Of a stretch of DNA of 64,000 bases, positions 43,055-46,346 are shown piece by piece. Numbering within the stretch: position 1 is the stretch's first letter; each line of letters starts with the position of its first letter. The notes under the pieces are model-generated. The model was not told the DNA's origin and did no database searches. It saw only the letters and a list, made by a program, of their open reading frames with translations. The stretch covers positions 1 to 64,000 of the forward strand of contig JAFSFC010000016.1 in the NCBI GenBank assembly GCA_017435425.1. Reading direction: 5' to 3'. The DNA comes from Ruminiclostridium sp. GTDB taxonomy: Bacteria; Bacillota; Clostridia; Oscillospirales; Oscillospiraceae. Both the position numbers and the translations under genes were made by a program.

Positions 43055-44440
43055 TTAGATCCCAAGAATGAGTTTTGCCACCTGGAAATACAGGAGCAGG
43101 GTGGTCACGTCCACCACAGTGGAAATGAAGGGGCTGGCCATGACGGCAGGGTCCAGATGGATCTTCTCTGCCAGCAGGGGCAGGACACAGCCCACGGTCT
43201 TGGCACACAGAACGGTGAGGACCATGGTCACGCAAATGACCGCCGCCACCCAGGCATCCACGCCGGTGTTGCCCAGAAGCATCCGGTCCACCACCAGGAG
43301 CTTGACAAAGTTGCAGGCTGCCAGGGTCACACCGCAGAGGACACCCACACGGATCTCCTTCCAGATGACCCGGACAGTGTCGCTGAACTCCACCTCACCC
43401 AGGGACAGGGCACGGATGACCGCCACAGAGGACTGGGTGCCGCTGTTGCCGCCGGTACCGGTCAGCATAGGAATGAAGGCGATGAGGGCGGAGCAGGCCG
43501 CCAGGGAGCTCTCAAAGCCCGTCAGGACCATACTGGTCAGGGTGGCCGAGAGCATCAGGATGAGCAGCCAAGGCACACGGGACTTCCAGGTCTCGAAGAC
43601 ACCGGTGCGCAGGTAGGGCTTGTCCGAGGGGGTCATACCGGCCAGCAGCTCGAAGTCCTCGGTGGTCTCTTCCTGCAGGACGTCGATGGCGTCGTCGATG
43701 GTGACGATGCCCACCAGGCGGTTTTCCTGGTCCACCACAGGGATGGCGGCCCAGTCATACTTGGCCATCATCTGGACCACGCTCTCCTGGTCCTCCAGGG
43801 TGCTCACGGAGATGACGTTGTCCTCCATGATGTCCTCCACCTTGTCATCCTCCTCCGCCAGGAGCAGGGTGCGCAGGGTGACCATACCCACCAGTTTTCG
43901 GTTGTTATCGGTGACGTAGCAGGTGTAGATGGTCTCCTTGTCCACACCGGTCCGTCGGATGCGCTTGATGGCCTCCTCAGCGGTCATGACGGGGCGGAGG
44001 CTCACATACTCCGTGGTCATGATGCTGCCGGCGCTGTCCTCCGGGTACTTGAGGATCTCGTTGATCATCTTGCGCATTTCGGGGTCGGCCTGCTTCAGGA
44101 TACGCTTGACCACATTGGCCGGCATCTCCTCCACCAGGTCGACGGCGTCGTCCACGTACAGCTCGTCGACGACTTCTTTCAGTTCGTTGTCGGAAAAGCC
44201 CTGGATCAACAGTTCCTGGGCCTCCGGTTCCATTTCAACAAAGGTCTCCGCTGCCAGTTCCTTGGGCAAAAGCCGGAACAGCAGGGGGAGCTTTTCTTCG
44301 GGCAGGTCCTCGAAGAGCGCCGCGATATCCGAGGCGTTCATGGTCACGAGGATGTCCCGCAGGGTCGTGTACTTTTTTGCCTCCACCAGGGCGGCCAGGG
44401 TCTCCCCCAAAGTCACGATGATTCTGTCTCTGTCTGCCAT
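43055..44440 (-). CDS. mgtE: Magnesium transporter MgtE
   Basis: A 461-residue MgtE. The N-domain (residues 1-130, LFEDLPEEKLPLLFRLLPKELAAETF) and two CBS domains (PEDSAGSIMTTEYVSLRP onward) bind Mg2+ as a gate, followed by five helices with the pore signature PMLTGTGGNSGTQSS. The ATG at 44440 has AGGAG at eight bases; an ATG six bases upstream is too near the RBS. Expression is probably Mg2+-controlled by the M-box-like leader upstream. Confidence 0.96.
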   Translation of the reverse strand: MADRDRIIVTLGETLAALVEAKKYTTLRDILVTMNASDIAALFEDLPEEKLPLLFRLLPKELAAETFVEMEPEAQELLIQGFSDNELKEVVDELYVDDAVDLVEEMPANVVKRILKQADPEMRKMINEILKYPEDSAGSIMTTEYVSLRPVMTAEEAIKRIRRTGVDKETIYTCYVTDNNRKLVGMVTLRTLLLAEEDDKVEDIMEDNVISVSTLEDQESVVQMMAKYDWAAIPVVDQENRLVGIVTIDDAIDVLQEETTEDFELLAGMTPSDKPYLRTGVFETWKSRVPWLLILMLSATLTSMVLTGFESSLAACSALIAFIPMLTGTGGNSGTQSSVAVIRALSLGEVEFSDTVRVIWKEIRVGVLCGVTLAACNFVKLLVVDRMLLGNTGVDAWVAAVICVTMVLTVLCAKTVGCVLPLLAEKIHLDPAVMASPFISTVVDVTTLLLYFQVAKLILGI

Positions 44441-44464
44441 TGGCATCTCCTCCCAGCTTTTTTC

Positions 44465-44709: not shown

Positions 44710-44744
44710 CCGGAAATCCACTCCATATATTCCCAGGCAGAAAA

Positions 44745-44822: not shown

Positions 44823-45242
44823 TCAGGCGTTGGCCAGGGCAGCACCCAGGTCGCGGCACTTCTGCTTGCCGTCGGAGTCGGGATGCAGGTTCACGATGAG
44901 GCCCTCAGCGCACAGGATGGCACCGGCTTCCTTGGTGCGTTCTTCCCAGTCACGCATCCATTGGCCGTCGCCCCAGTCATAGGAGCCGAACAAGACCACC
45001 TTCTTGCCGGAGAGCTTGCCTTCCAGCGCAGTGAAGAAGGGCTCAAAGGCCTCCTCCTCCAGGACCTCATCGCCCATGGAGGGGCAGCCCAGAGCCAGAC
45101 GGTCGTAAGCGGCAGCTTCGTCGGCGTTGGTATCCAGGACGTTGATCAGCTTAGCCTGATTGCCGGTGCCTGCCACCACTTCCGCTGCCATGGCAGCGGT
45201 GTTGCCGGTGCCGGACCAAAAAATAACAGCCATAGTTTCCAT
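44823..45242 (-). CDS. Flavodoxin
   Basis: A 139-residue short-chain flavodoxin. MAVIFWSGTGNTAAMAAEV is the FMN phosphate loop and VLFGSYDWGDGQWMRDWEER the flavin-ring loop. Flavodoxins replace ferredoxin as electron carriers when iron is short. The start ATG (45242) follows AAGGAG. Upstream, the promoter overlaps a GTTAGC/GCTAAC palindrome of the kind bound by DtxR/IdeR-type iron repressors, which fits iron-dependent repression. Confidence 0.94.
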   Translation of the reverse strand: METMAVIFWSGTGNTAAMAAEVVAGTGNQAKLINVLDTNADEAAAYDRLALGCPSMGDEVLEEEAFEPFFTALEGKLSGKKVVLFGSYDWGDGQWMRDWEERTKEAGAILCAEGLIVNLHPDSDGKQKCRDLGAALANA

Positions 45243-45332
45243 AAATATGATCTCCTTGATAAGTAAACTGACAGATCCCCGTTTCCCTTCTGCCCTGCAG
45301 CGGCAGAGGAAACCCAGGTACAACTCCAACAA

Positions 45333-45347
45333 TTAGCACAAACTAAC
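45333..45347. promoter_or_regulatory. Weak third GTTAGC-type palindrome in the flavodoxin leader
   Basis: TTAGC, ACAA, ACTAAC; same spacing as the two strong sites but two mismatches. Confidence 0.4.
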
Positions 45348-45386
45348 TGTTGGGCAAATAAAAAAGGCTTGCCTCTATCTTTATTG

Positions 45387-45402
45387 GTTAGCATACGCTA
45401 AC
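45387..45402. promoter_or_regulatory. GTTAGC-N4-GCTAAC operator at the flavodoxin promoter
   Basis: Perfect 16-base palindrome with ATAC centre. It begins nine bases downstream of the -10 box (45412-45417), so a bound repressor would block transcription. The half site resembles the DtxR/IdeR family consensus (TTAGGTTAG..CTAACCTAA). Confidence 0.75.
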
Positions 45403-45411
45403 TTCAATGTC

Positions 45412-45417
45412 AGTATA
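45412..45417 (-). promoter_or_regulatory. -10 box of the flavodoxin promoter
   Basis: Minus strand TATACT; the -35 region is weak. Confidence 0.6.
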
Positions 45418-45482
45418 GCAGTTTTGTTCTCTTCCATCTACTCCATTCAGCCATTTTTTCAGTTTGTTTTCTCTGTAAAGCC

Positions 45483-45516
45483 AAAACCACCCCGCCGGGA
45501 TAGGCAGGGTGGTTTT
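45483..45516 (-). terminator. Terminator-like hairpin of the candidate sRNA
   Basis: AAAACCACCCTGCC and GGCGGGGTGGTTTT arms on the minus strand, followed by GGCTTTAC; the T run is inside the stem end. Confidence 0.65.
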
Positions 45517-45621
45517 GAACAAAAAAGGAACGTGTAAAAATATGCTTGTCCAAAAGGAGAGAGTCCCGGTTCCGGGGAGCACCGGCCCCGGGACAAAGAG
45601 AAGGGCACATCTTCGATTTTG

Positions 45622-45637
45622 GTTAGCATCAGCTAAC
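45622..45637. promoter_or_regulatory. GTTAGC-N4-GCTAAC operator, second strong site
   Basis: Perfect 16-base palindrome with ATCA centre, nine bases downstream of a minus-strand TATACT (45647-45652). Confidence 0.75.
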
Positions 45638-45646
45638 TCCGAGAGC

Positions 45647-45652
45647 AGTATA
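45647..45652 (-). promoter_or_regulatory. -10 box of the candidate sRNA promoter
   Basis: Minus strand TATACT, same distance to its operator as in the flavodoxin promoter; -35 weak (TGGAAT at 45670-45675). Confidence 0.5.
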
Positions 45653-45730
45653 CCACCGATCAGATGGGAATTCCACTCCATTTGGGCGCTTCCACCGAAA
45701 AAGTCTTTCGCTTATTTGTTCAAAACTCCC

Positions 45731-45833: not shown

Positions 45834-46346
45834 ATGGCAGAAGCATACCGAAAGGGCGACTACGTCAGCTACTCCTGCAGCGGCGTATGCCGCATCGACG
45901 ACATCCGGCAGGAGTCTGCCGGCAAGGGGGAAACCAAAACCTTTTACATCCTGAAACCCGTGGCCGACCCGGGCTCCACCATTTTTGTGCCCACCAGCAG
46001 CCCGGTCCTCCTGGCCAAGATGCAGCGGCTGCCCAACAAGGAAGAGGCAGACGGGATGATCCTCGCTACCAAAAAAGACCAGATGGCCTGGATCGATGAC
46101 CGCAAGGTCCGGGCCGCCGCCTTTCAGGCCGTCATCAAGGCCTGCGACCTGAAGGAGCTCCTGGATCTGGTGGCCTGCATCTACCAAAAGCGGGCCGACC
46201 TGGCTGCCAAGGGCAAGAAGCTGGCCGCCTCGGATGAGAGCACCCTACGTCGGGCAGAAGCCCTCATCGAGAACGAACTCTCCTTTGTCCTCCAGCTGAA
46301 AGGGGATCAGGTAGGGGCCTACATCCGAGAAAAGCTGGGGATTTGA
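45834..46346 (+). CDS. CarD family transcription factor
   Basis: A 170-residue protein. The N-terminal 60 residues (AYRKGDYVSYSCSGVCRIDDIRQ and KTFYILKPVADPGSTIFVPT) are the CarD/CdnL RNA-polymerase-interacting Tudor-like domain, the rest is the helical DNA-binding half (ALIENELSFVLQLKGDQVGAYIREKLG). CarD proteins stabilise open complexes, often at rRNA promoters. AAGGAGG fits the ATG at 45834. The leader contains a strong terminator hairpin, so the gene may be attenuated. Confidence 0.92.
   Translation: MAEAYRKGDYVSYSCSGVCRIDDIRQESAGKGETKTFYILKPVADPGSTIFVPTSSPVLLAKMQRLPNKEEADGMILATKKDQMAWIDDRKVRAAAFQAVIKACDLKELLDLVACIYQKRADLAAKGKKLAASDESTLRRAEALIENELSFVLQLKGDQVGAYIREKLGI

Follow-up and report, generated by a model that had tools for sequence, protein, structure and literature searches.

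The short region between an mgtE gene (43055..44446, minus strand) and a CarD-like gene (45834..46346, plus strand) raises the question of what controls two minus-strand promoters that carry the same palindrome, and what is made from the one that lies farther from the gene behind them. The original prediction was that a DtxR/IdeR-type iron switch governs both, with flavodoxin as the product of one promoter (P2) and an iron-stress small RNA as the product of the other (P1). We re-examined this within the window, by which we mean the whole stretch of 64,000 nucleotides that was analysed, and against the rest of the genome and its relatives.

Checking of the positions showed that the arrangement predicted for the two promoters is exact in every respect. 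At P2, the −10 hexamer TATACT (45412..45417, minus strand; read from 45417 to 45412) is followed by exactly 9 bases (45411-45403) and then by the box GTTAGCATACGCTAAC (45387..45402). At P1, the same hexamer (45647..45652, minus strand; read from 45652 to 45647) is followed by exactly 9 bases (45646-45638) and then by the box GTTAGCATCAGCTAAC (45622..45637). Both 16-base boxes are perfect DtxR-type palindromes of the form GTTAGC-N4-GCTAAC, and the spacing between them is 235 bases. Both hexamers are of the extended type TGnTATACT (TGCTATACT at P2 and TGGTATACT at P1), and inspection of the sequence revealed no recognisable TTGACA at either promoter.

The weaker third site that had also been predicted is present at 45332-45347 with two mismatches, but it is not significant alone, because the signal at this level is near background (24 sites genome-wide with up to two mismatches vs 17 for the control). 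It lies in the flavodoxin leader, within a 28-nt inverted repeat (CCAACAATTAGCACAAACTAACTGTTGG, 45326..45353). The leaders of two boxed flavodoxin genes, that of the window and that of locus L064, both have such a degenerate box as part of a longer inverted repeat; the two belong to different lineages and have the A/G mismatch at the same position.

The exact box was found at six sites in the 2.2067 Mb assembly, where about 0.13 would be expected by chance for 12 fixed bases, and the reversed-pattern control gave none. These six sites make up three pairs, one at the window locus and the others on contigs C27 and C69. When the half-sites GTTAGC and GCTAAC were allowed to stand 0-12 bases apart, N4 was the sole spacer found in 922 kb (42% of the genome); the classical core GTTAGSCTAAC and the 19-bp box TTAGGTTAGSCTAACCTAA were not found in 922 kb of the genome. 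The box was present in 13 of the 16 genomes of the genus, the studied one counted, and the control matches were 0 in all of them. On these comparisons we take the boxes to be real and to form a regulon.

Its other members were as follows. The exact pair on C27 (C27:19109 and 19187) lies upstream of a 1118-aa secreted SLH-domain protein, and that on C69 (C69:134913 and 135003) has a MATE transporter on one side and, on the other, a DUF2325 gene which is cut by the contig end. Boxes with one mismatch were found upstream of feoB (C34:6931), with two-mismatch sites upstream of feoA; upstream of an AraC-type gene followed by a DUF6110 gene and a heavy-metal P-type ATPase (C1:88659 and 88710); and upstream of a short Cys-rich/HMA protein (C12:7650). 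Two further one-mismatch boxes precede a polyferredoxin (C60:13578), in a less convincing place upstream of the apparent promoter, and the only DtxR-family gene of the genome (C17:104573), without clear promoter overlap. A ZnuA-type gene had only a two-mismatch box, at its start codon. In the clear cases the box is positioned at or just past the −10 hexamer (for example TACAAT-2-box on C1, TATTAT-3-box on C12, TAAACT-8-box on C69), so that a repressor sitting there would prevent initiation. In congeners, boxes precede feoB, DUF2325 and another flavodoxin type.

DUF2325-type genes were boxed repeatedly (L008:8914-9152, L116, L122, L125, L127 and L094), and they may encode an iron-stress protein. 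In several congeners the DUF2325 leader has a hairpin of similar form, GCGTCC-loop-GGACGC, between two boxes. The boxed operon of the small AraC-type gene, DUF6110 and the ATPase (L018:6716-9715) likewise carries a strong terminator-like hairpin, CTGCGGATGCCGCAG-T7, between its two boxes and before the genes.

Profile searches showed that the genome has a single match to PF02742 over the cut-off, in an ORF that also has PF01325. The protein, encoded on contig C17, is a DtxR-family member of 120 aa with both DtxR domains and without the SH3-like third domain. No protein of the Fur family exceeded the Pfam threshold in the genome, where one match fell below it, and control by Fur was rejected on this ground. 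It is almost certain that the box is read by this sole DtxR-type repressor. The genome scan proposed with the original prediction, for boxes near feoB and other iron genes, was thus answered positively: boxes occur at feoB, at other metal genes and at the sole DtxR gene, and the box is spread through the genus. The iron-switch reading is strongly supported, and we hold a DtxR-type metal regulon to be highly probable.

The product of P2 was confirmed. The gene at 44823..45242 (minus strand), with an ATG start at 45242, the Shine-Dalgarno sequence AAGGAG and a leader of about 160 nt, encodes a true short-chain flavodoxin (TIGR01753/PF00258), which scored 129.7 bits against TIGR01753 (cut-off 123). 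This flavodoxin was found in none of the 15 other congeners. In one of them (G012), the conserved slot flanked by mgtE and the CarD-like gene holds a flavodoxin of another type, which is encoded on the opposite strand with two exact boxes before it (L114:1501-2009); we read this as a non-orthologous replacement under the same control. Another congener (G010) has a flavodoxin of the G012 type, also with two boxes. Among 80 flavodoxin loci of other genomes, mostly Clostridia, five were boxed (a site with no more than one mismatch in the 500 bases upstream), vs 0.04 expected from shuffles, and at locus L094 a boxed DUF2325-flavodoxin operon unites two members of the regulon. Given the two congeners, the five of 80 loci and L094, control of flavodoxin by GTTAGC-N4-GCTAAC has arisen or been kept repeatedly. 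Box, regulon, regulator and flavodoxin can all be regarded as established by comparison, and repression by iron is predicted from the sequence.

From P1, a candidate iron-repressed small RNA of about 155 nt is predicted (45483..45638, minus strand). It had been described as an ORF-free transcript with a terminator-like end. The first part held, since no ORF starting inside it closes before the hairpin; the second held in part. The 14-bp hairpin at its 3′ end (45483..45516) was called terminator-like for the minus strand, although other bases break up its U-tract (UUUUGGCUUU). No other minus-strand unit that the hairpin could terminate is apparent, and the CarD-like gene points the other way. 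The RNA strand folds at −75.1 kcal/mol, vs −48.3 for shuffles (z −6.9), with much of this strength owed to the terminator and other GC-rich palindromes. The ensemble calculation left three minus-strand stretches exposed: R1 (45595..45604, the UUCUCUUUG region), C/U-rich and unpaired; R2 (45551..45562, CUCUCUCCUUUU), C/U-rich, anti-Shine-Dalgarno-like and mostly unpaired; and R3 (45517..45535, ACACGUUCCUUUUUUGUUC), unpaired and placed just before the terminator. All three are C/U-rich and have an anti-Shine-Dalgarno character. It is this anatomy, namely a regulated extended −10, a length of about 155 nt, the fold, the hairpin and the exposed C/U stretches, that supports a small RNA. A discrete P1 transcript is fairly likely, and its ends are those predicted from the promoter and the hairpin.

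P1 might instead serve flavodoxin itself, as the start of an alternative long leader; iron would then repress two promoters in tandem, P1 and P2, and the hairpin would be an attenuator with partial read-through. P1 does lie on the flavodoxin strand, with the same box and with flavodoxin downstream, and the imperfect U-tract would suit such read-through. Elsewhere, too, the first box is separated from the gene by a terminator-like hairpin, namely at the AraC/ATPase operon of C1 (CTGCGGATGCCGCAG-T7), at C27 (hairpin and T-run) and at L115 in a congener. However, P1 is unnecessary for flavodoxin because P2, with its own −10 and box, sits downstream of the hairpin. A leader that begins at P1 would moreover extend over about 400 nt before it reaches the start codon, and no alternative antiterminator pairing was put forward. 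We consider this leader possible but doubtful.

The two promoters share a second element upstream. It starts 30 nt before the −10 in both cases, as AATGGAGTAGA at P2 (45437..45447, minus strand) and as AATGGAGTGGA at P1 (45672..45682, minus strand; extended match CCAAATGGAGTGGAAT, 45670-45685). Its consensus, AAYGGAGTRGA, lies 30-31 bases before the −10 at P1, at P2 and at the promoter of the SLH-domain protein on C27 (L007:9060-9070, plus strand), and the P1 and C27 elements are identical at 15 of 16 bases (CCAAAYGGAGTGGAAT). The 11-base pattern has four copies genome-wide, of which three are those at the boxed promoters named here; the pattern was derived from those three, so the count alone is no test. 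What is telling is its matched position at all three. A search near the boxes of congeners gave no close match. A near copy (ATGGAGTGGATTTCC) was observed at 44730 (minus strand) of the window, just upstream of the TTGACA promoter of mgtE.

The promoters of P1, P2 and C27 are without TTGACA, while those of C1, C69 and feoA have it and that of C12 has TTGACT. This suggests that AAYGGAGTRGA may be the site of a co-activator. The boxed AraC-type gene of C1 encodes a protein of 131 aa that consists of the DNA-binding domain only; within the genus it was found in this genome only, the other matches being stretches of larger proteins with 32-40% identity. A feed-forward loop, in which the DtxR-type protein would repress an AraC-type activator together with the targets of that activator, is a testable idea. 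The most far-reaching version, that Clostridia have a DtxR-controlled, trans-acting iron-sparing sRNA and that the AAYGGAGTRGA promoters (of the sRNA, of flavodoxin and of one SLH protein) are activated by the boxed AraC-type protein of C1 in feed-forward fashion, is offered as a tentative proposal.

A different explanation sees P1 as a remnant. An iron-regulated promoter would have been duplicated and its gene then lost or replaced, so that a short, functionless transcript is left. P1 and P2 have upstream element, −10, spacing and box in common, all at equal offsets, and the slot has been remodelled: the flavodoxin that G012 has there is of another type and lies on the other strand. The sequence of the candidate RNA is not conserved either: it was matched in none of the 15 congeners and in none of 300 genomes of the family. 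Two matches of 22-24 nt in other families (L030 and L031) are antisense to the ribosome-binding sites of unrelated genes and were judged to be due to chance. In Rfam, no family exceeded the gathering threshold for the candidate RNA; RsaE alone was matched, at 25.2 bits vs 79. The RsaE/RoxS match covers the full model (window 45483-45616, minus strand), probably by way of the C/U-rich stretch and the terminator. Against a remnant, maintenance is suggested by an intact promoter, by a box free of mismatches and by a strong fold with a terminator-like end, although selection finds no support in an orthologue, none having been found. A remnant thus seems unlikely to us, if credible.

If P1 does yield a small RNA, its targets might be recognised by the exposed stretches. 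The search for such targets, which had been suggested as a check, gave no clear support. Genome-wide, complements of R2 were no commoner than those of the control (29 vs 34), and R3 behaved likewise. The best R2 complement outside the locus is the Shine-Dalgarno sequence of an L-serine dehydratase beta gene, which ranked third for R2 in a duplex ranking of 798 ribosome-binding sites in 42% of the genome. L-serine dehydratases of this class are iron-sulphur dependent enzymes. The top-ranked sites showed no enrichment for Fe-S proteins, either by a CxxCxxC proxy or by the Pfam names of top matches vs random controls, and the top target lists also include genes for a tRNA synthetase, a TetR protein, a CoA-transferase and EutA. 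The serine dehydratase and DUF2229-type matches near the top of the ranking are suggestive only. The iron-stress sRNA of the original prediction thus kept its fitting anatomy and found no backing from conservation in relatives, from an Rfam family or from Fe-S targets. That it acts in trans is a conjecture to which we give slightly less than even chances, and its action on particular targets can be suggested weakly at most.

The metal sensed by the repressor bears on the whole reading. Its residues M9, C100, E103 and H104 align with Met10, Cys102, Glu105 and His106 of IdeR, which we take to be the primary metal ligands there, and two ligands of the ancillary site of IdeR, Glu83 and His98, are replaced by T and S. 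Among solved structures, that of E. coli MntR (2h09) is the closest in sequence, and the match to NF008273 is below the cut-off. The regulator could accordingly be an MntR-type manganese sensor, with a regulon for Mn/Fe uptake in place of an iron switch. Because the best relative is MntR and two ancillary ligands are missing, a manganese role keeps some probability, and the box differs from the classical DtxR core. But in the alignment the M and C of the primary site belong to the iron type seen in DtxR/IdeR, and the targets include feoA, feoB and flavodoxin. Iron is favoured by the primary ligands as well as by the targets; a manganese sensor is improbable, and iron is probably the main signal.

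Our preferred reading, the iron switch with flavodoxin and a small RNA, can then be put as follows. The metal-loaded 120-aa DtxR-family repressor would bind GTTAGC-N4-GCTAAC and cover the start region of the two minus-strand units between mgtE and carD. When iron is present, P1 and P2 would both be shut. When it is absent, P2 would yield flavodoxin, which is able to replace ferredoxin, and P1 would yield an RNA of about 155 nt that stops at the hairpin 45516-45483. This RNA would most likely be an iron-sparing sRNA whose exposed C/U-rich stretches pair with Shine-Dalgarno regions, so that translation of dispensable iron proteins is lowered, as by FsrA and IsrR. The model as a whole, from DtxR switch to iron-sparing sRNA, is one that we moderately favour. 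That P1 encodes a small protein, for which there are open frames of 56 and 66 aa from 45629 and 45610, was rejected as very improbable, as both frames stay open across the terminator hairpin and lack a Shine-Dalgarno sequence.

Two known systems come close to the regulator and its box. E. coli MntR (PDB 2h09) is likewise a short two-domain protein, and the TAGC-N4-GCTA geometry presumably resembles the E. coli MntR box; in contrast to MntR, the primary ligands here are M and C and not the Mn-type set, and the targets are iron genes. The DtxR/IdeR regulons of Actinobacteria share with ours a DtxR-family repressor, iron-type primary ligands and a palindrome of GTTAG/CTAAC halves at the promoters of iron genes. 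The Actinobacterial consensus is TTAGGTTAG(G/C)CTAACCTAA, with the halves 1 bp apart (C. glutamicum DtxR, PMC1382209; IdeR, PMC8464063), whereas here they are N4 apart and the regulator is without the SH3-like domain and two ancillary ligands. We regard it as a DtxR/IdeR-type regulon, by all appearances a new one, whose operator is spaced differently; for Clostridia, a literature search of partial coverage gave no account of a GTTAGC-N4-GCTAAC operator or of an sRNA of this sort.

The candidate RNA also has counterparts. MrsI of M. tuberculosis is an IdeR-boxed, iron-sparing sRNA of about 100 nt with a 6-nt seed (PMC8628891). The two are alike in having an IdeR/DtxR-type promoter box, but MrsI is actinobacterial, and a relation in sequence was probed only by the Rfam scan. 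FsrA and IsrR are iron-sparing sRNAs of Firmicutes under the control of Fur; IsrR of S. aureus is 174 nt long, iron-repressed, with a box at its promoter and C-rich unpaired regions, and FsrA of B. subtilis uses a C-rich motif to pair with Shine-Dalgarno sequences (PMC9410917). The candidate RNA resembles them in its C/U-rich open segments; unlike them, it is under a DtxR-type box, and no sequence match was found. The literature search, with its partial coverage, gave no DtxR-class iron-sparing sRNA for Firmicutes.

The regulon part by itself is a useful annotation and is not surprising. It defines, from sequence alone, an iron regulon and its operator for a genus of Clostridia; the gut-type bacterium studied has no Fur over the threshold in its genome. 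P1 adds a concrete candidate for an iron-sparing sRNA of Firmicutes that is controlled by DtxR rather than by Fur. Should this RNA exist, the same solution would have been reached independently once more, beside RyhB, PrrF, FsrA, IsrR and MrsI.
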